This document shows, piece by piece, positions 42,824-52,091 of a stretch of DNA of 64,000 bases. Both the position numbers and the translations under genes were made by a program. The notes beneath the pieces were generated by a model. That model ran no database searches and was not told the origin of the DNA. It saw only the letters and a program-made list of their open reading frames with translations. Source of the stretch: Mycobacterium mantenii (GTDB lineage: Bacteria; Actinomycetota; Actinomycetes; Mycobacteriales; Mycobacteriaceae). Where the stretch lies: positions 248,001 to 312,000 of the forward strand of contig NZ_AP022590.1 of assembly GCF_010731775.1 (NCBI RefSeq). The letters are read 5' to 3'. The first letter of the stretch is position 1. Each line of letters opens with the position of its first letter.

Positions 42824-43285
42824 ATGACCGACCCATCCGTGAAGGCCACCGTGCGGATCGACGCCCGGCCCGACGTGGTGTACCGGCTCATCACCGACCT
42901 GCCCACGCTGGCCGAGCTGGCCGAGGAGGCGGTGGCGATGGAGTGGCGCAAGGGCGACGCGGTGAGCCCGGGCGCGGTGTTCACCGGCCACAACAGGAGC
43001 GGCAGCCGGCGCTGGAGCACCAAGTGCACGGTCACCGACGCGGAACCGGGCCGTCGCTTCGCGTTCGACGTCAGCCACACGATGCTTCCGATCGCCCGCT
43101 GGCAATACGACATCGTCGCGGCCGACGGCGGGTGCGAGGTCACCGAAAGCACCTGGGACCGCAGACCCGGATGGTTCCGCAAGGTCGCCGGCAAGGCCAC
43201 CGGCGTCAGCGATCGGGCGGCCGCCAACACCGAGCACATCCGGCTCACCCTGCAGCGCCTCAAGCGGCGCGCCGAGACCGAGTAG
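42824..43285 (+). CDS. SRPBCC-fold (polyketide cyclase-like) protein
   Basis: A 153-residue START/SRPBCC small-ligand-binding protein: ATVRIDARPDVVYRLITDLPTLAELAEE at the N-terminus, GAVFTGHNRSGSRRWSTKCTVTDAEPGRRFAFDV in the core, long C-terminal helix. Ligand unknown. It heads a run of co-directional redox genes; the next gene begins 24 bases later. Confidence 0.85.
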   Translation: MTDPSVKATVRIDARPDVVYRLITDLPTLAELAEEAVAMEWRKGDAVSPGAVFTGHNRSGSRRWSTKCTVTDAEPGRRFAFDVSHTMLPIARWQYDIVAADGGCEVTESTWDRRPGWFRKVAGKATGVSDRAAANTEHIRLTLQRLKRRAETE

Positions 43286-43309: not shown

Positions 43310-44773
43310 ATGACGCGACGCGATCCCACCGTAGCCGTCATCGGAGCCGGCATGTCGGGACTGTGCGTCGCAATCGCCTTGCTGCGCAACGGGATTACCG
43401 ACGTCACCATCTACGAGAAGGCCGACGAGGTGGGCGGAACCTGGCGCGACAACACCTACCCGGGTCTGGTCTGTGACATCCCCTCGCGTGTCTACCAGTA
43501 CAGCTTCGCCAGGAACCCCAACTGGTCGCACCTGTTCTCACCCGGCGGCGAAATCCAGGCCTATTTTCGCGACATCGCCGACCGTTACGCGTTGCGGGAA
43601 CGGATCCGCTTCGGCACCGAGATCTGCCACGCGCGGTTCGACGACGGCCGCTGGGTGCTGCGTACCGACGCCGGAGAGGAACAGACGGTCGACTTTCTGA
43701 TCTCGGCCACCGGCGTGCTGCATCACCCGCGCATGCCATCGATCGCCGGATTGGATGACTTCGGCGGCAACGTGTTTCATTCGGCGCGCTGGGATCACAG
43801 CGTCGACGTTCGAGGCCGGCGCGTCGCGGTCGTCGGCAACGGGTCGACGGGCGTGCAGCTGGTGTGCGGTATGGCCGGGGTGGCCGGCCACGTCGCGCTG
43901 TTCCAGCGGACCGCGCAATGGGTGCTGCGCCTGGCGAACCCCCGCTACAGCGGCTTCACCGCGATTACCCGACGAAGGATGCCGTGGCTGGATGGGCTGG
44001 CCTACCGCCTCTACAGCCTCGGATTCGACTACTTCGCGGTCGGACTGACCAAGCCGGGCCTGCGCCGAAAGATCATGGCGGCGCTGTGCCGCGCCAGCCT
44101 CTGGGAAATCCGCGACCCCGAGTTGCGGCGGGCGTTGACTCCCGACTACACGCCGGCTTGCAAACGACTGGTGATGTCGAACGGTTTCTACCGGGCGATG
44201 CAGCGCGACGACGTCGAACTGGTCACGGAGGGCATCGATCATGTGGAACGGCGCGGCATCGTCACCGCCGACGGCGTCCTACACGAGGTGGACATCATCG
44301 TGCTCGCCACCGGATTCGACACGCACGCGTTCTTCCGGCCGATGGAGCTGATCGGCCGGGACGGCATTCGTGCCAACGACGTCTGGCGCGACGGGCCCCG
44401 GGCCTACCAAACCGTGGCGCTGTCCGGTTTTCCCAACTTCTTCATGATGCTGGGGCCGCACAGCCCGGTGGGAAACCTCGCGCTGACGACCGTGGCCGAG
44501 TCGCAGGCCGACCACATCGTGGGCTGGATCGAATGCTGGCGCCGCCGCGAATTCGACACGATCGAGCCGACCGCCGCGGCGACAGAGCGTTTCAACGCGA
44601 AGCTCCGCGCCGCGATGCCGGACACCGTGTGGACCACCGGCTGCAACAGCTGGTACCTCAACAAGGACGGCGTGCCCGAGGTGTGGCCCCTGACCCCCGC
44701 TGAACACCGCCGGATGCTCGCCAACCCCGAACCCGGCCAGTACGACCTGCGGCGGTACGTCGCGGCCGGTTGA
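43310..44773 (+). CDS. Flavin-containing Baeyer-Villiger-type monooxygenase
   Basis: A 487-residue class B flavoprotein monooxygenase. FAD fold VAVIGAGMSGLCVAIAL (residue 8 on), EVGGTWRDNTYPGLVCDIPS, the Baeyer-Villiger fingerprint FGGNVFHSARW (F-x-G-x3-H-x3-W), and the NADPH fold VAVVGNGSTGVQL. It probably inserts oxygen into a ketone (ester or lactone product) or oxidises a heteroatom. Related mycobacterial enzymes include EthA and its paralogues. Not expected here from the M. tuberculosis order. Confidence 0.92.
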   Translation: MTRRDPTVAVIGAGMSGLCVAIALLRNGITDVTIYEKADEVGGTWRDNTYPGLVCDIPSRVYQYSFARNPNWSHLFSPGGEIQAYFRDIADRYALRERIRFGTEICHARFDDGRWVLRTDAGEEQTVDFLISATGVLHHPRMPSIAGLDDFGGNVFHSARWDHSVDVRGRRVAVVGNGSTGVQLVCGMAGVAGHVALFQRTAQWVLRLANPRYSGFTAITRRRMPWLDGLAYRLYSLGFDYFAVGLTKPGLRRKIMAALCRASLWEIRDPELRRALTPDYTPACKRLVMSNGFYRAMQRDDVELVTEGIDHVERRGIVTADGVLHEVDIIVLATGFDTHAFFRPMELIGRDGIRANDVWRDGPRAYQTVALSGFPNFFMMLGPHSPVGNLALTTVAESQADHIVGWIECWRRREFDTIEPTAAATERFNAKLRAAMPDTVWTTGCNSWYLNKDGVPEVWPLTPAEHRRMLANPEPGQYDLRRYVAAG

Positions 44774-44859
44774 GCACGGCGGTTGAGGACGCCGGCCGGC
44801 GAAAGCGGCTGAGGACGCCCGCCAAAGAACCCAGTACCGGCGGTTTCGCATATCTGGGT

Positions 44860-44882
44860 CGCGTCCCTATACTTGGGACGCG
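44860..44882 (+). promoter_or_regulatory. Promoter with operator-like palindrome
   Basis: CGCGTCCC (44860-44867) and GGGACGCG (44875-44882) are perfect inverted arms around TATACTT, which contains the near-consensus -10 box TATACT (44868-44873). A start of transcription near 44880 would leave a leader of about 55 bases before the next gene. A regulator bound here would occlude the -10 box. The same 23 bases could also form an RNA hairpin. Confidence 0.55.
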
Positions 44883-44935
44883 CGACGTCCGCCGCACAGT
44901 GTGATCGAGGGCTAAACGCCGAGCTAGGGGGCACG

Positions 44936-45844
44936 ATGCTGACTGTCGATAACCAAGCGGCGGGTCCGCACGACGCCTCGCTGGACCACGAGCGACTGGT
45001 GCTCGAGGCCCGCGATGTGAACTTCGACTGGGCGCAGCTGCCGTTCCACTACGTGCCCGGTGAGCCGTTCACCACCCACGTCCTCAACGTGCTGCACCTG
45101 CTGCTGCCCGCCGGCGAAGAGTTCTTCGTCGAGGTGTTCAAGCAGACGCTGCCCCTGATCAAAGACGACCAGCTGCGGCTGGATGTCCAGGGCTTCATCG
45201 GCCAGGAGGCCGTGCATTCGCAGGCGCACGCCAACGTGCTCGCCCACTTCGCCGCGCGCGACATCGACCTGACCCCCTATACCGGCCAGATCAAGTGGCT
45301 GTTCGACAAGCTGCTCGGGCCCCGACCCGGCTGGAGCCCGCGCCGCCGGCAGAGCTGGCTCCTCGAGCAGGTTTGCATCGTCTCGGCCATCGAGCACTAC
45401 ACCGCCATCCTGGGAGAGTGGATCCTCGACTCGCCGGCCCACGACCGGATCGGCACCGACCCGGTGATGCTGGACATGCTGCGCTGGCACGGCGCCGAAG
45501 AGGTCGAACACAAGGCGGTGGCCTTCGACACCATGAAGCACCTGCAGGCCGGCTACTGGCGGCAGGCGCGCGCCCAGCTCGTCGTGACGCCCGCCATGCT
45601 GCTGTTGTGGATTCGCGGCGTGCGGTTCATGTACTCGCTGGATCCCCAGCTGCCGGCGCGCACCAAGCCGCGCTGGCGGGACTACTTCTCCGCGGCGCGC
45701 CGCGGTTTGGTGCCCGGGCCGCTGCGCTTCATCCGGGCGATCGGCGACTACTACCGGCCAGGCTTTCACCCCTCGCAGCTCGGCGGGGTGGGGCTGGCCG
45801 TCGACTACCTGGCCATCTCGCCCGCCGCGCGAGCCTCGCACTGA
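44936..45844 (+). CDS. PF10118-type protein with di-iron ligand pattern
   Basis: A 302-residue helical protein of the family annotated 'predicted metal-dependent hydrolase'. It shows the ferritin-like di-iron pattern: a Glu at 61/62 (GEEFFVEVF), E91-x2-H94 (QEAVHSQAH), E153 (AIEHY) and E189-x2-H192 (GAEEVEHKA). This matches carboxylate-bridged di-iron oxygenases rather than a hydrolase. Segment 213-230 (QLVVTPAMLLLWIRGV) may associate with membrane. A reductase with a [2Fe-2S] domain lies two genes on; from memory Rv2777c/Rv2776c form the same pair in M. tuberculosis. ATG at 44936 after AGGGGGCACG. Confidence 0.82.
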   Translation: MLTVDNQAAGPHDASLDHERLVLEARDVNFDWAQLPFHYVPGEPFTTHVLNVLHLLLPAGEEFFVEVFKQTLPLIKDDQLRLDVQGFIGQEAVHSQAHANVLAHFAARDIDLTPYTGQIKWLFDKLLGPRPGWSPRRRQSWLLEQVCIVSAIEHYTAILGEWILDSPAHDRIGTDPVMLDMLRWHGAEEVEHKAVAFDTMKHLQAGYWRQARAQLVVTPAMLLLWIRGVRFMYSLDPQLPARTKPRWRDYFSAARRGLVPGPLRFIRAIGDYYRPGFHPSQLGGVGLAVDYLAISPAARASH

Positions 45845-45848
45845 TCCG

Positions 45849-47633
45849 ATGACCATGACCTCGACCATGACCTCGACCATCATCGCCAGCGACGGCGTCA
45901 CACTGGCCGTACACCGGTACACCGACATCGACCCGGCGCGCCCAACCATCTTGGCAATTCACGGTTTTCCGGACAACCACCATGTCTGGGACGGCGTGGC
46001 CCAGGAGCTGGCCGGCCAGCCCTACAACGTCGTGGCCTACGACGTGCGGGGAGCCGGTGAATCCACCCGCCCCGCAAAGAGATCCGGATACCTCTTCCCG
46101 CAGCTGGTCTCCGACATCGCTGCGGTGATCGACAGTTTGGGCGTCGGGCGGGTGCACCTGCTGGCCCACGACTGGGGCTCGATTCAGGCGTGGGCGGCGG
46201 TCACCGACGACTCGGTGATGGGCAAAGTCGCATCTTTCACCTCGATCTCGGGCCCGCACCTGAACTATGCCGGCGCATTTATACGGTCGGCTCGCACGCC
46301 GCGGGCCGTGGCCCAGGTCATCAGGCAGCTCATTTCGTCGGGCTACATCGGCTTCTTCTTGTGCCCGATCGTGCCGGAACTGTCGTTCCGCTCCAGGATC
46401 GGCGTGAAAGTCGTTGAGGCCCTGGAACGCATCGGCCGGTCGAGCACCCGCAGCCAGCGCCACGACACCCTGCGTTCGGTCACCGACTATGTGCACGGGC
46501 TCAACCTGTACCGGCAGAACATGCCGGCCCCGATGGTGGCGCCGGGACGCCGGCTGCCCGAGACCACCGTGCCCGTCCAGACCGTGGTTCCGCGCCGGGA
46601 CATCTTCGTCACCCCCGCGCTGCAACGGTTCACCGGCGCAATTCCGTTCGGCGCCAGGGTGATTGAGATCGAGGGCGGCCACTGGGTGGTGACGTCGCGT
46701 CCCGATGTCATTGCCCGGCTGACCGTCGAGTGGGTCGACCGCAACGTCGGCGGCTCAGGCTCGGCCGAGCTGCGCAGCGTCGGCCCGGCCGAGGTTCGCG
46801 GCGAGCGGCGCGAGGTGCGCGGCAAACTCGCGCTGGTCACCGGGGCCGGCGCCGGAATCGGCCGGGCCACGGCGGTGGAGCTGGCCCGGCACGGCGCCCG
46901 CATGATCGTGCTCGCCGACCGTGATGTGGCCGCCACCAACGAAACCGCCGACGCCGTCCGCGCCGCCTGCGCCGAGGCCGCGGTATACCAGGTCGACGTC
47001 AGCGACGAGGGCGCCATGAACGCCTTCGCGGCGCAAGTGCGCAACGAGCACGGCGTGGTCGACATCCTGGTGAACAACGCCGGCATCGGGATGGCGGGCC
47101 GGTTCTTGGAGACGAGCTCGGCGAACTGGGAAGACATCATGGGCGTCAACGTCGGCGGTGTGATCTCGGGCAGCAGGGCGTTCGGCGCGCAGATGGTCGA
47201 GCGCGGCGAGGGCGGAACCATCATCAACGTGGCGTCGGCGTCGGCGTACCTGCCGTCGAAATCCATGGTCGCCTACAGCACGACGAAGGCGGCCGTGCTG
47301 GCGCTCAGCGAATCCCTGCGGGCCGACTTCGCCGACGAGGGCATCAGCGTCACGGCGGTGTGCCCAGGATTCGTCAACACCAACATCGCCAGGAACACGA
47401 TCTACGCCGGGATGAGCGCGGAGCATCAGGAGCGGGCGCGGGGAAAGGCCGATGCCGCCTACCGGCGCCGCAACTTCACCCCCGAAGCCACCGCCAAGGC
47501 GATCGTCAAGGCCGTCAGGACCGGTCCGGCCGTGTTGCCCATCGCCGCGGAGTCGCGGATCGGCTACGCGATGCGGCGCATCAGCCCGGGCATGATCCGG
47601 CTGTTCGCGCGGTTGGACATTCGGCAGACGTAG
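45849..47633 (+). CDS. Epoxide hydrolase / short-chain dehydrogenase fusion (EphD-like)
   Basis: A 594-residue two-domain enzyme. The N-terminal alpha/beta hydrolase (about 1-300) has HGFPDNHHVWD and the nucleophile HDWGS with Asp108, the epoxide-hydrolase choice of nucleophile. The C-terminal SDR (from about 322) has VTGAGAGIGRAT, NNAGIG and the catalytic YSTTK. M. tuberculosis EphD (Rv2214c) has the same architecture and acts on epoxy-mycolates (published), but lies elsewhere. Starts four bases after the di-iron gene and ends nine bases before the reductase. Three in-frame ATGs lie within the first 20 bases. Confidence 0.9.
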   Translation: MTMTSTMTSTIIASDGVTLAVHRYTDIDPARPTILAIHGFPDNHHVWDGVAQELAGQPYNVVAYDVRGAGESTRPAKRSGYLFPQLVSDIAAVIDSLGVGRVHLLAHDWGSIQAWAAVTDDSVMGKVASFTSISGPHLNYAGAFIRSARTPRAVAQVIRQLISSGYIGFFLCPIVPELSFRSRIGVKVVEALERIGRSSTRSQRHDTLRSVTDYVHGLNLYRQNMPAPMVAPGRRLPETTVPVQTVVPRRDIFVTPALQRFTGAIPFGARVIEIEGGHWVVTSRPDVIARLTVEWVDRNVGGSGSAELRSVGPAEVRGERREVRGKLALVTGAGAGIGRATAVELARHGARMIVLADRDVAATNETADAVRAACAEAAVYQVDVSDEGAMNAFAAQVRNEHGVVDILVNNAGIGMAGRFLETSSANWEDIMGVNVGGVISGSRAFGAQMVERGEGGTIINVASASAYLPSKSMVAYSTTKAAVLALSESLRADFADEGISVTAVCPGFVNTNIARNTIYAGMSAEHQERARGKADAAYRRRNFTPEATAKAIVKAVRTGPAVLPIAAESRIGYAMRRISPGMIRLFARLDIRQT

Positions 47634-47642
47634 GGGGCTTCG

Positions 47643-48731
47643 GTGCCGGAGAGCATGTGGGCCAGCAGGCCCGCCGACCTGTACGGACGGCGCGACCACG
47701 ACCGCTTTGGGTCGCTGCTGTGGGGCGTGCGGGCAGTGTTCGAGGGCTTCGCGGCGGTGTCGCGGTGGTCGCCCGCGCGGGTGAAGCCGGTGCAGCGCAA
47801 GCTGAGTGCGGTAGTGACCAAGCGCGAGCTCGCCGCGCCGGACGTCGTCGCGTTGACCCTGGCCGACCCCGCGGGTGGGTTGCTCCCGTCCTGGACGCCC
47901 GGCGGGCACATCGACGTCCTGTTGCCCTCCGGCCGGCGACGGCAGTACTCGTTGTGCGGTCCGCCCGGGCGGCGAACCGACTACCGCATCGCCGTCCGCC
48001 GGATCGCCGACGGCGGGGGCGGATCGATCGAGATGCATGAGGCTTTCGGCGTGGGCGACACGCTTTCATTCGAAGGTCCGCGCAACGCGTTCTACCTCGG
48101 CACCGCCGAGCGGGACGCGTTGTTCGTCATCGGAGGCATCGGGGTGACGCCCATCCTGCCGATGATACAGGCGGCCGCGCAGCGCGGAATCGATTGGCGC
48201 GCAATCTATACCGGCCGAAGCCGCGAGTACATGCCGCTGCTCGACGAGGTCGTGTTGGCGGGGCCGGACCGGGTGACGGTGTGGGCCGACGACGAGCACG
48301 GCCGCTTCGCCACCGTGGCGGAGCTGCTGGCCGGGGCGGGGCCGGCGACCGCTGTCTACGTGTGCGGGCCGAGCGCGATGCTCGAGGCCGTCCGCATCGC
48401 CCGCAACGAACATGCCGGTGCACCACTGCATTACGAGCGGTTCAGCCCGGCGCCCGTCGTCGACGGGGTTCCGTTCGAGTTGGAGCTCGCGCGATCGGGG
48501 CAGGTGCTCGCGATACCGGCGAATCGGACCGCACTGGACGTCATGCTCGATCGGGATCCGACGACGCCGTACTCGTGCCGGCAGGGATTCTGCGGGACGT
48601 GTAAGGTCAAAGTGCTTGCCGGGCAAGTGGATCACCGTAGCCGCGTCGCGGCGGGCTCGAGAGATATGCAGGACGGCATGCTGGTGTGTGTCTCGCGGGC
48701 CGTCGGTGAGCGAGTCGTCATCGACGCGTGA
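47643..48731 (+). CDS. FNR-type oxygenase reductase with [2Fe-2S] domain
   Basis: A 362-residue electron-transfer protein: flavin domain (RRQYSLCGPPG, about 99), NAD(P)H domain (GGIGVTPILPM, about 163; YVCGPSAML) and a C-terminal plant-type ferredoxin with C312-x4-C317-x2-C320-x28-C349. This is the architecture of phthalate dioxygenase reductase and KshB. Likely partner: the di-iron protein in the same operon, or the Rieske oxygenase at 49992. GTG start at 47643. Overlaps the convergent GNAT by 14 bases. Confidence 0.92.
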   Translation: MPESMWASRPADLYGRRDHDRFGSLLWGVRAVFEGFAAVSRWSPARVKPVQRKLSAVVTKRELAAPDVVALTLADPAGGLLPSWTPGGHIDVLLPSGRRRQYSLCGPPGRRTDYRIAVRRIADGGGGSIEMHEAFGVGDTLSFEGPRNAFYLGTAERDALFVIGGIGVTPILPMIQAAAQRGIDWRAIYTGRSREYMPLLDEVVLAGPDRVTVWADDEHGRFATVAELLAGAGPATAVYVCGPSAMLEAVRIARNEHAGAPLHYERFSPAPVVDGVPFELELARSGQVLAIPANRTALDVMLDRDPTTPYSCRQGFCGTCKVKVLAGQVDHRSRVAAGSRDMQDGMLVCVSRAVGERVVIDA

Positions 48732-49224: not shown

Positions 49225-49874
49225 TACGGCCGGGACTGCTCGAGGTAGGCGGCCAGCGCGTTGGTCAGACCCCGGCGCGCCATGTCGAGGTCGGCGTAGG
49301 ACCCGAGTTGGCGTTCCGACACCAGGCCGCGCATCGCGCCGGGGATCAGGGCGGCCACCTCGCGAACCCGATCCGGGTCGACGGCCAAACCGGCGAACGC
49401 CTGCTGGCAGGTCTCCAGCCAGCTCTTGCCCCAGGAGAACAGCTCGGCGGCGGTGTGCGGGTAGAGCCGCTCGAGCTCGTCGGGATCACGCGGCAGCGCG
49501 GCCCGCAGATTTTCGATCGCACGCGAATCCGCCGACGCCAGGCCACGGTAGAGGGTCTCGATGATGGCGCCGACGCGCTCGCGCAGCGGCGCCTCCGCCG
49601 AGACGGGTGCCGACAGGGTGGAGAACGTCGCGGCGCGCCGCTCGGCGGTGCGGTGCAGGACCGCGGCCCAGAACCCGTCGGTGTCGCCGAACTGATACTG
49701 CACCGCGCCCCAGGTCGCGCCGATGTCCTTGGCGATGCGGTTGGCCGACACCGAGCCCGGCTCGCCGGAGGCCAGCGAGCGCAATGCCGCTTCGAGCATG
49801 CTTTCGCGAGTCGCATGGCCCCGCCGGTTCGGGCGCCGGCCCGCGACTCCTGGCGCGCCGCTCTGAGGGGTCAT
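49224..49874 (-). CDS. TetR-family transcriptional regulator
   Basis: A 216-residue TetR regulator. The N-terminal helix-turn-helix reads TRESMLEAALRSLASGEPGSVSANRIAKDIGATWGAVQYQFGD (about 22-64); the remaining helical domain binds an unknown ligand. Divergent from the Rieske oxygenase, which it probably controls through the inverted repeat at 49916-49933, inferred from position. Confidence 0.9.
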   Translation of the reverse strand: MTPQSGAPGVAGRRPNRRGHATRESMLEAALRSLASGEPGSVSANRIAKDIGATWGAVQYQFGDTDGFWAAVLHRTAERRAATFSTLSAPVSAEAPLRERVGAIIETLYRGLASADSRAIENLRAALPRDPDELERLYPHTAAELFSWGKSWLETCQQAFAGLAVDPDRVREVAALIPGAMRGLVSERQLGSYADLDMARRGLTNALAAYLEQSRP

Positions 49875-49915
49875 TCGCCGATCCTATCCACAGCCGACGG
49901 CCCGGACACGGGTTT

Positions 49916-49957
49916 TCATAGAGGGTACTTTGATTTTGTTGCGGCGCGGCCTATCAT
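49916..49957 (+). promoter_or_regulatory. Rieske oxygenase promoter with inverted repeat
   Basis: -35 TTGATT (49930-49935), 16-base spacer, -10 TATCAT (49952-49957). An imperfect inverted repeat TCATAG-N6-CTTTGA (49916-49933) overlaps the -35 element, a plausible site for the divergent TetR protein. Confidence 0.5.
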
Positions 49958-49978
49958 TCGTACGCGAGGGAGGGCAGC

Positions 49979-49999
49979 ATGGCAGGGCTCGATGGCTAA
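49979..49999 (+). other. Six-codon upstream ORF overlapping the Rieske start
   Basis: ATG-GCA-GGG-CTC-GAT-GGC-TAA. The strong GGGAGGG sits four bases before this ATG, whereas it is 17 bases from the Rieske ATG at 49992. The uORF stop lies just beyond that ATG, which would allow coupled re-initiation. Confidence 0.45.
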
Positions 50000-51002
50000 G
50001 CCACCGTTGTCGATGAAACCGACCGGCTGGTTCCAGGTCGCCTGGTCCGACGAGATCGGCGTCGGCGACGTGCACAAAATGAAGTACTTCGACCAGGAGA
50101 TGGTCGCCTGGCGCGCCGAATCCGGCGAGCTCACGGTCATGAACGCCTACTGCGAGCACCTGGGCGCGCACCTGGGGTACGGCGGCAAGGTCGTCGGCGA
50201 GGTGTTGCAGTGCCCGTTCCACGGGTGGCAGTGGAGTCGGGAAGGCCGCAACGTCTGCATCCCGTACCAGGACCGGCCCAACCGTGGCCGCCGCATTCGC
50301 ACCTACCCGGTGGTGGAGCGCAACGCGTCGGTGTACATCTGGCACGACCTGGACCGTCGCGAGCCCTACTTCGACGCGCCGGACGTGTTCGCCGCGTTCG
50401 ACGACGGCAGCAGCGCCGACGACTACTACCCGCAGCAGCGGCTGTACCGCGAGACCCTGGAACTGCACCCGCAATACGTACTGGAGAACGGGGTGGACTT
50501 CGCGCACTTCAAGTACGTGCACAACACCCCGATCGTGCCCGTGTTCACCCGGCACGACTTCGCCGAGCCGGTGTCCTACGTCGACTTCACCATCACCTTC
50601 GAGGGCGATGATGGGCAGAAGATCGAGGACGTCAACAGCGGCGTGCAGGCCATCAACGGCGGTCTGGGCATCGCCGTGACCAAGAGCTGGGGCATGATCG
50701 ACAACCGCACCATCTCGGCGATCACGCCCGTCGACGAGTCCACCTCCGACGTGCGCTTCATGGTCTACATCGGCCGGACGCCGCACAAAGATCCCGTCGC
50801 GGGCCTCGAAAAAGCTCGAGCCAAGGCCGACGAATTCGGGCGCGAGGTGATCCGCCAGTTCGAGCAGGACATCGAGATCTGGTGCCATCAGCGCTATTCG
50901 GATCCACCCGCGCTGGCCACCGACGAGTACGAAGGCTTCACCGCAATTCGCCAGTGGGCCAAGCAGTTCTATCCCGACGCGTTCGCATCGCAGGAAGGCT
51001 AA
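49992..51002 (+). CDS. Rieske non-heme iron oxygenase, large-subunit type
   Basis: A 336-residue Rieske oxygenase. [2Fe-2S] ligands C54-x-H56 and C74-x2-H77 (YCEHLGAHLG, CPFHGWQW); mononuclear iron ligands H172 and H177 with D169 nearby (NGVDFAHFKYVH). Resembles KshA/steroid or aromatic hydroxylases; the substrate is not deducible. Needs an external reductase; the FNR-[2Fe-2S] protein at 47643 is the nearest candidate. Followed six bases later by a DapB-like dehydrogenase. Confidence 0.92.
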   Translation: MAKPPLSMKPTGWFQVAWSDEIGVGDVHKMKYFDQEMVAWRAESGELTVMNAYCEHLGAHLGYGGKVVGEVLQCPFHGWQWSREGRNVCIPYQDRPNRGRRIRTYPVVERNASVYIWHDLDRREPYFDAPDVFAAFDDGSSADDYYPQQRLYRETLELHPQYVLENGVDFAHFKYVHNTPIVPVFTRHDFAEPVSYVDFTITFEGDDGQKIEDVNSGVQAINGGLGIAVTKSWGMIDNRTISAITPVDESTSDVRFMVYIGRTPHKDPVAGLEKARAKADEFGREVIRQFEQDIEIWCHQRYSDPPALATDEYEGFTAIRQWAKQFYPDAFASQEG

Positions 51003-51008
51003 AAGGCA

Positions 51009-52091
51009 ATGAGTACAGCACCGGTTCGCGTCTTTCAGGTCGGGAGCGGCAACGTCGGCTCGGAGATGATCAGGCGGATCGTCACCCAGCCGGACATCGA
51101 ACTGATTGGCGTGCACTGCTATTCGCCGGAGAAGGTCGGCAAGGACACCGGAGAGTTCGCCGGCCTGGCGCCCAACGGGGTGGCGTTCACCGGGACGATC
51201 GAGGAGATCATCGCCGCCAAGCCGGACGTGCTGACGTTCCACGGCGTGTTCCCCGACGAGGACCTCTACGTCAAAGTGCTTGAGGCGGGCATCAATATCG
51301 TCACCACCGCCGACTGGATCACCGGCTGGCACCGCGACAAGAACCACCCGCACCCGTCGGGCAAGCCGGTGACCCGGCTGTTGGCCGAGGCGTGCGAGAA
51401 GGGCGGCGCGACGTTCTACGGCACCGGGATGAACCCGGGGCTGAACCAGATCCTGGGCGTGGTGTGCTCGGCCGACGTCGCCGACATCGAGAACGTCACC
51501 ACCATCGAATCGGTCGACGTGTCGTGCCACCATTCCAAGGACACCTGGATCGAGGTGGGTTACGGCCAGCCGGTCGGCGACCCCGAAATCCCCTCGAAGC
51601 TCGAGAAGTACACCCGCGTGTTCGCCGACAGTGTGTACATGATGGCCGACTGCTTCGACCTGCCGCTCGACGAAGTCAAGTTCAGCTATGAGCTGGGCGC
51701 GTGCACCAAGGACGTCGACCTGGGCTGGTACACGCTGCCCAAGGGTTCGCTGGGCGGCAACTACATCAAGTACCAGGGCATGGTCGACGGCGTGCCGCGG
51801 GTCGAGACACACCTGGAATGGCAGATGACCCCGCACACCGATCCCAGCTGGAACATCAAGGGCTGCTACATCACTCAGATCAAGGGCGACCCCTGCATCT
51901 ACAACAAGCACATGATCTTCCCCAAGCCCGGCGTCGACCTGTCCAACCCGGACAACTTCGCCTCCATCGGCATGACCGTCACCGGCATGCCCGCGCTGGC
52001 GTCGATCAAGTCGGTGGTCGCTGCGCCGCCGGGGCTCATCACCAGCGCCGACCTGCCGCTGCGGGGATTCGCCGGGCGGTTCAAGAAGTAG
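51009..52091 (+). CDS. DapB-like NAD(P)-dependent dehydrogenase
   Basis: A 360-residue protein with an N-terminal Rossmann fold VFQVGSGNVGSEMIRRI and a C-terminal domain related to amino-acid dehydrogenases of the 2,4-diaminopentanoate dehydrogenase/dihydrodipicolinate reductase group (GTGMNPGLNQILGVVCS, CHHSKDTW). Actual DapB is at 54388, so this is a different enzyme. Paralogues are frequent next to lipid/steroid genes in mycobacteria. Its coupling to the Rieske oxygenase suggests it oxidises or reduces the hydroxylated product. Confidence 0.82.
   Translation: MSTAPVRVFQVGSGNVGSEMIRRIVTQPDIELIGVHCYSPEKVGKDTGEFAGLAPNGVAFTGTIEEIIAAKPDVLTFHGVFPDEDLYVKVLEAGINIVTTADWITGWHRDKNHPHPSGKPVTRLLAEACEKGGATFYGTGMNPGLNQILGVVCSADVADIENVTTIESVDVSCHHSKDTWIEVGYGQPVGDPEIPSKLEKYTRVFADSVYMMADCFDLPLDEVKFSYELGACTKDVDLGWYTLPKGSLGGNYIKYQGMVDGVPRVETHLEWQMTPHTDPSWNIKGCYITQIKGDPCIYNKHMIFPKPGVDLSNPDNFASIGMTVTGMPALASIKSVVAAPPGLITSADLPLRGFAGRFKK

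Follow-up and report, generated by a model that had tools for sequence, protein, structure and literature searches.

EphD (Rv2214c of Mycobacterium tuberculosis) is the nearest experimental anchor for the pathway that we propose here for three adjoining genes of Mycobacterium mantenii, found in a 64,000-nucleotide stretch of its 6.19 Mb genome (contig NZ_AP022590.1, positions 248,001 to 312,000; hereafter the window, to which the plain coordinates refer). Overproduction of EphD or of MSMEG_4280 in M. smegmatis is reported to lower the level of epoxymycolates and to raise that of wax-ester-derived dicarboxymycolates, and the same study describes the roles of the epoxide hydrolase (EH) and short-chain dehydrogenase/reductase (SDR) domains as still to be determined (PMC7998700). 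In the window, gene 1 (44936-45844, + strand) encodes a PF10118 protein of 302 residues, a predicted ferritin-like dimetal oxygenase; gene 2 (45849-47633, +) encodes a 594-residue epoxide hydrolase-SDR fusion with the architecture of EphD; and gene 3 (47643-48731, +) encodes a 362-residue flavin-[2Fe-2S] reductase of the phthalate dioxygenase reductase (PDR)/VanB type. The gaps between them are 4 and 9 nucleotides, as stated in the first-pass annotation, which had described three tightly packed genes.

DesA3 and Rv3230c form a desaturase-reductase pair, and an apparent pair of this kind is present elsewhere in the M. mantenii genome (L024, 13813-16383). Its dimetal lipid enzyme has an FNR-[2Fe-2S] reductase next to it, as gene 1 has in gene 3. 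However, DesA3 is a membrane desaturase, and its reductase shares 29% identity with gene 3 across the aligned region.

Based on our observations, we suggest, with a probability of about 0.6, that gene 1 encodes a ferritin-like dimetal oxygenase and no hydrolase, that gene 3 is its dedicated reductase and that the epoxide made by gene 1 is opened by gene 2. The basis of this reading is the predicted fold, the conserved residues and the operon linkage, from which we infer the identity of the metal, the electron transfer, the epoxide product, the later steps and the substrate class.

The gene 1 product matches PF10118 with 247.5 bits (cut-off 33.2), and this was its sole match in hmmscan at E≤0.01. 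None of the NCBIfam models matched it, a PDB sequence search with gene 1 and with a profile (of A2) gave no match up to an E of 10, and a second protein search (A1) revealed no broader spread among the 120 matches listed. At E≤0.001 the family takes in 3532 protein clusters; in a phylum survey it was found at E≤1e-10 in 6 of 119 genomes, with few relevant genera among those sampled. The structure model of gene 1 (predicted local distance difference test score, pLDDT, 87) has its best matches among ferritin-like dimetal proteins, i.e. ribonucleotide reductase R2, R2lox, AurF and CmlI, and desaturases are also present among its Foldseek matches. The predicted structure contains a helical bundle of the ferritin type, with the proposed ligands placed on four core helices.

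Conservation was read in two sets of sequences. Eighty named loci, originating from mycobacteria, 11 other named genera and one unclassified Streptosporangiaceae bacterium, were retrieved with two peptide patterns spanning parts of two ligand helices, and therefore part of the residue conservation in them is built in. The second set is an alignment of 12 diverse members, identified by protein or hidden Markov model search and reaching down to 21% identity. Ten residues (E61, Q90, E91, H94, H98, E153, H185, E188, E189 and H192) are invariant in 80/80 loci and in 12/12 members, and among them is the series Glu, ExxH, Glu, ExxH (E61, E91/H94, E153, E189/H192), which falls on successive core helices. 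QExxH and HxxEExxH were also present in all six plasmid-borne relatives read, which had been found by tblastn. The first-pass annotation had proposed a class II di-iron ligand order for this protein and had expected its residues to be conserved across PF10118 and to converge in a helical bundle; the alignments confirm the former, except at position 62, and the model gives a ferritin-like dimetal bundle that carries the residues on four helices.

The proposed ligand order itself needs a correction. E61, E91, H94, E153, E189 and H192 are present and conserved, whereas E62, given there together with E61, is variable, and the invariant H98 and H185 had not been listed. Position 62 is occupied by Arg in 43 loci, Glu in 29, Asp in six and Gln and Gly in one each, and because of this difference in conservation E61, and not E62, is the candidate ligand. 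H185 is a third histidine, within HxxEExxH (H185-E188-E189-H192), and the same pattern is found in AurF-family (PF11583) proteins of the genus. Since H185 is invariant, HxxEExxH recurs in those proteins and QExxH is reported in CylC-type halogenases, the ligand set is likely to be a three-histidine site like that of AurF, rather than the six ligands named earlier; E61, E91, H94, E153, H185, E189 and H192 are the candidate ligands. The metal site is most likely di-iron, or Mn/Fe.

Gene 1 may work like the PF11583 family without belonging to it. We keep the two apart because the profile comparison shows no clear homology: a profile match of gene 1 to PF11583 is absent at E≤0.01, and the hhalign probability is 2.9%, obtained with shallow alignments. 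AurF and CmlI carry EExxH in contrast to the QExxH of gene 1, which also differs from them in that reductase and epoxide hydrolase genes are linked to it. R2lox and the R2 protein of class I ribonucleotide reductase show 6-17% identity to gene 1 in structural alignments, and gene 1 is set apart from both by the third histidine in its last helix and by the linked reductase. QExxH is common to gene 1 and the CylC/NocO halogenases, which are reported to have HxxDExxH in place of HxxEExxH (PMC12101540); most PF10118 loci, on the other hand, show no sign of a halogenase context and have an epoxide hydrolase partner instead. A further PF10118 frame of 121 residues in the M. mantenii genome (L024, 8867-9232) matches the family profile over its first third only, shows a weak match to Ferritin_2 (E 0.0007) and lies beside a P450-like gene.

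Gene 3 was correctly described by the first-pass annotation as an FNR reductase with a C-terminal [2Fe-2S] domain. Its matches to Fer2 and NAD_binding_1 exceed the respective cut-offs, that to FAD_binding_6 is sub-threshold, and its residues 58-361 align to phthalate dioxygenase reductase 2pia with 176.7 bits. The order of flavin, NAD and C-terminal [2Fe-2S] regions, the last with four cysteines (C312-x4-C317-x2-C320...C349), is that of the PDR/VanB class IA; we take RQYSL to be the flavin motif, GGIGVTP the NAD motif and the cysteines the ligands of the cluster.

A reductase gene is located downstream of the PF10118 gene in 77 of the 80 loci, e.g. directly after it in M. simulans (L087) and M. 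ostraviense (L091); the first-pass annotation had named Rv2777c-Rv2776c of M. tuberculosis as a pair of this kind. As the whole M. mantenii genome contains just seven reductase-like matches at E≤1e-3, this adjacency is far beyond chance. Of the three remaining loci, L084 and L135 reach a contig end within 1.7 kb, before a reductase could be seen, and L089 is truly without one. In 60 genomes of the genus, which hold 68 PF10118 genes at E≤1e-60, the reductase lies at most 3 kb downstream of 31 of the 33 genes with 74-100% identity and directly after all 21 genes with 37-39% identity; the two close relatives without it (G017:C24 and G058:C56) come from genomes with a second complete set. The reverse survey of the same genomes gave 108 reductase matches at E≤1e-40, 65 of them at E≤3.1e-77. 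In this best group 64 of 65 lie directly downstream of a PF10118 gene (53, all 10 others read, and L162), and the last one (G059:C467) is a fragment, which may be the remainder of a gene split by the end of a contig. None of six weaker matches read (of 43, E≥1e-75) has a PF10118 gene nearby, and two of them are found beside a Rieske gene.

Gene 2 consists of an alpha/beta-hydrolase and an SDR domain and scores 755.7 bits against NF004514/PRK05855 (cut-off 455), i.e. it is of the same hydrolase-SDR fusion type as EphD. The hydrolase half (residues 1-310) contains HGxP (H38-P41), D108 in HDWGS, the cap residues Y166 and Y221, D251 and H278, among which we presume the Asp nucleophile, the His, HGxP and the two cap Tyr to play the catalytic roles; the SDR half (about residues 319-594) has TGAGAGIG and YSTTK. 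HGxP, Asp108, both cap Tyr and the His were retained in 55/55 further sequences; as the acid, 53 have Asp and two have Glu. For this set a single open frame was taken per locus with a linked hydrolase, at 53 of 55 loci (L069 and L135 were dropped for coverage), and to these were added two M. mantenii copies, namely the hydrolase of a second operon and a separate EphD-like protein. Because the signature residues are kept, the hydrolase half can be assigned by its signature as an epoxide hydrolase, in line with the Asp-nucleophile enzyme fused to an SDR that had been claimed earlier. Haloalkane dehalogenase, also considered for gene 2, was ruled out by the presence of both cap Tyr.

The hydrolase, either alone or fused to an SDR, is linked to PF10118 in 55 of the 80 loci (43 after and 12 before the PF10118 gene), and three gene orders were observed. 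For the 50 non-mycobacterial loci the figures are 12 before, 15 after and 23 with none. The 60 genomes contain 29 hydrolase matches at E≤1e-60, every one of them immediately downstream of a PF10118 gene. A Burkholderia replicon (L209) has the reverse order, with the fusion immediately upstream of a 39% PF10118 gene, and no PDR-type reductase was found there within 6 kb. The separate EphD-like fusion of M. mantenii (C1:1900899; 38% identical to gene 2, with the same catalytic residues) has, unlike gene 2, no PF10118 gene within the 13 kb read (L183). However, 7 of the 17 non-mycobacterial linked fusions score higher against this copy than against gene 2, and therefore the PF10118 link concerns EphD-type proteins broadly. 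In M. lepraemurium (L069, 8913-13571) the fusion, reductase and Rieske genes are split into short frames, apparently decayed, and the PF10118 frame is whole.

The second set of M. mantenii (C1:5918753-5921676) consists of a PF10118 gene, a stand-alone hydrolase (69%), which aligned to the solved structure 5ng7, and a reductase (77%), with no SDR. It is preceded by a gene for a 1083-residue AMP-binding and NAD_binding_4 protein (L021, 5468-11680; C1:5915467-5921679), which from its domains we read as being of the fatty acyl-AMP ligase (FAAL) type; a homologue precedes the PF10118 gene at 10 of the 80 loci.

In the proposed pathway, gene 3 would pass electrons from NAD(P)H through its flavin and [2Fe-2S] cluster to reduce the dimetal site of gene 1, which would form an epoxide by adding one oxygen atom to a lipid-like substrate, most likely at a C=C bond. 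The hydrolase half of gene 2, with its Asp nucleophile, would open the epoxide to a diol, and the SDR half could convert a hydroxyl into a ketone. At loci with a Baeyer-Villiger enzyme (43310-44773 in the window) the ketone could become an ester. The earlier assignment of the set as oxygenase, hydrolase, SDR and reductase is supported by the fold, the conserved residues and the linkage, and the order of epoxide, diol and ketone is a presumed one. It is conceivable, though rather doubtful, that PF10118 is an unrecognised di-iron epoxidase family supplying epoxides to EphD-type hydrolase-dehydrogenases, with the alkene-epoxide-diol-ketone-ester route encoded side by side at this locus; if true, this arrangement could explain the EphD-type activity leading from epoxy- to keto- and wax-ester-type lipids.

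Several observations weigh against the epoxide pathway. The hydrolase is missing from 25 of the 80 loci, all of which have the reductase. In the 60 genomes, the PDR-type reductase accompanies 1 of the 14 PF10118 genes with 40-45% identity, and it is missing at four of the six plasmid loci read (75 plasmid records have a PF10118 match). The reductase link is thus real among close relatives, and distant PF10118 relatives do not all have this reductase; the partnership anticipated by the first-pass annotation holds for nearly all close relatives and fails at those plasmid loci and in the 40-45% clade, which has a reductase of the FAD type. Twelve of the other 13 genes of this clade (11 of the 12 fetched loci and the M. 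mantenii copy L022, 8628-11060) are followed at about 190 bp by an FAD-dependent Pyr_redox_2 gene of the ferredoxin-reductase type, and L149 has neither reductase. The mycolate version of the pathway is weakened by the presence of the oxygenase-hydrolase pair in Streptomyces, Saccharopolyspora and Burkholderia, which are not known to make mycolates; as the set occurs in Streptomyces and, without a PDR-type reductase, in Burkholderia, mycolates need not be the substrate. A swap between two unrelated reductase types is predicted for an electron-consuming enzyme and not for a hydrolase, and this frequent pairing with both kinds of NAD(P)H reductase, together with the modelled fold and ligands of dimetal oxygenases, makes it extremely improbable that PF10118 is a true metal-dependent hydrolase, even though Pfam and source names label it so and one study, relying on correlation, lists a group of PF10118 proteins with its candidate proteases (PMC8960859).

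The loci without a hydrolase would also fit an alternative in which the oxygenase-reductase pair is real, but the reaction is a hydroxylation, desaturation or other C-H oxidation and the hydrolase acts on another metabolite of the same pathway. It would gain from the 37-39% homologues, 21/21 of which have the reductase and no adjoining hydrolase at E≤1e-60 (weaker homologues escape this threshold), from the desaturases among the Foldseek matches and from an Acinetobacter plasmid carrying a PF10118 gene beside a P450, a ferredoxin and an FAD reductase. We nevertheless consider it unlikely, since hydrolase and PF10118 stay together in three gene orders, in the Burkholderia replicon devoid of the PDR-type reductase and at all 29 hydrolase matches of the 60 genomes. 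It is improbable that gene 1 is a CylC-like dimetal halogenase or an AurF-like N-oxygenase acting on a possibly carrier-bound substrate. The QExxH and HxxEExxH motifs, set beside QExxH and HxxDExxH of CylC-type halogenases, the HxxEExxH of AurF-family proteins of the genus and the FAAL-type protein before the second operon would suit this proposal, a FAAL, NocL, being named with the halogenase NocO (PMC12101540). Against it stand the absence of a clear profile relationship to PF11583, the two epoxide-hydrolase Tyr, kept in 55/55 sequences, unlike in a dehalogenase partner, and the restriction of the FAAL-type gene to just 10 loci. PDR-type reductases serve Rieske oxygenases, and two of the six more distant reductase relatives read adjoin a Rieske gene, so gene 3 could mainly serve the KshA-like Rieske oxygenase encoded at 49905-51002, its place beside PF10118 being incidental. 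This seems very improbable: a Rieske gene is found within 7.5 kb in 11/80 loci versus the PF10118-reductase pair in 77/80, and G017 and G058 keep the Rieske gene but not the reductase at the locus, both having their second complete set elsewhere.

The genes surrounding the trio in the window are less constant. The gene at 43310-44773 (+) encodes an FMO/Baeyer-Villiger-type monooxygenase with an FMO-like match, and contains FGGNVFHSARWD, fitting FxGxxxHxxxW(P/D), which we take to be the Baeyer-Villiger monooxygenase fingerprint. It is an optional partner: homologues of at least 76% occur in 9/60 genomes (M. mantenii included), directly before the PF10118 gene in six, and a Baeyer-Villiger gene precedes the pair in 11/80 loci, i.e. 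seven mycobacterial and four of Amycolatopsis (36-38% homologues). In a Rhodococcus plasmid the pair has a 37% homologue downstream of it, and so it has in another genus of the family. Further upstream, an SRPBCC (Polyketide_cyc2) protein of lipid-binding fold (42824-43285, +) is encoded, as in several mycobacterial loci. Downstream, the region 49227-52091 contains the Rieske oxygenase gene and one for a dihydrodipicolinate-reductase-like protein, adjoined by a divergent gene whose product weakly resembles BetI-type repressors.

A block at 44826-44881 precedes gene 1; its promoter-like part spans 44830-44881 (+; TTCGCA-17-TATACT), and it includes GTACCGGCGGTTTCGCATATC and TATACTT, which are mostly kept in the aligned related loci covering it (the L089 piece is too short). 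Because this conserved block contains a promoter-like match, the trio may have its own promoter, separate from the Baeyer-Villiger gene. A palindrome, GCGTCCC-N7-GGGACGC (44861-44881), is intact only in the M. mantenii window, and L067 differs from it by one base. As a regulon operator it was rejected: nine palindromic places in the M. mantenii genome, versus five with the reversed pattern, give no clear signal.

A Peptidase_M24 gene was observed near the EphD-like fusion or the pair at nine of the 80 loci and two plasmid loci (L099, L102, L103, L108, L111, L112, L117, L129, L131, L205 and L209; Pfam checked in three), and the Burkholderia and Dietzia proteins are 51% identical. The Dietzia plasmid pDK313-58 (L205, 893-5346), typed as mobilizable, carries an EphD-like fusion, PF10118 and a PDR/VanB reductase, followed by a TetR gene, near transposase and integrase genes.

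Among open-licence papers we found no functional study of PF10118/COG3687/IPR016516 or of Rv2776c/Rv2777c; for the latter two, one paper gave expression data and another a mutation table. None joined 'metal-dependent hydrolase' with ferredoxin reductase and diiron in Mycobacterium, and the match for wax-ester mycolate with Baeyer-Villiger concerned growth on alkanes. We see in PF10118 a probable family of dimetal oxygenases whose fold type is known and whose motif set is distinct, in a reproducible partnership with a reductase and an epoxide hydrolase. If the proposed reading is true, thousands of proteins that now bear the name of hydrolases would turn out to be oxygenases, and a testable oxygenase-reductase-epoxide hydrolase pathway could be assigned in many genomes. 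PF10118 would then be a candidate source of epoxides for EphD-type enzymes, and the three genes would offer a set of enzymes for oxidising alkenes together with what is probably the natural electron donor.

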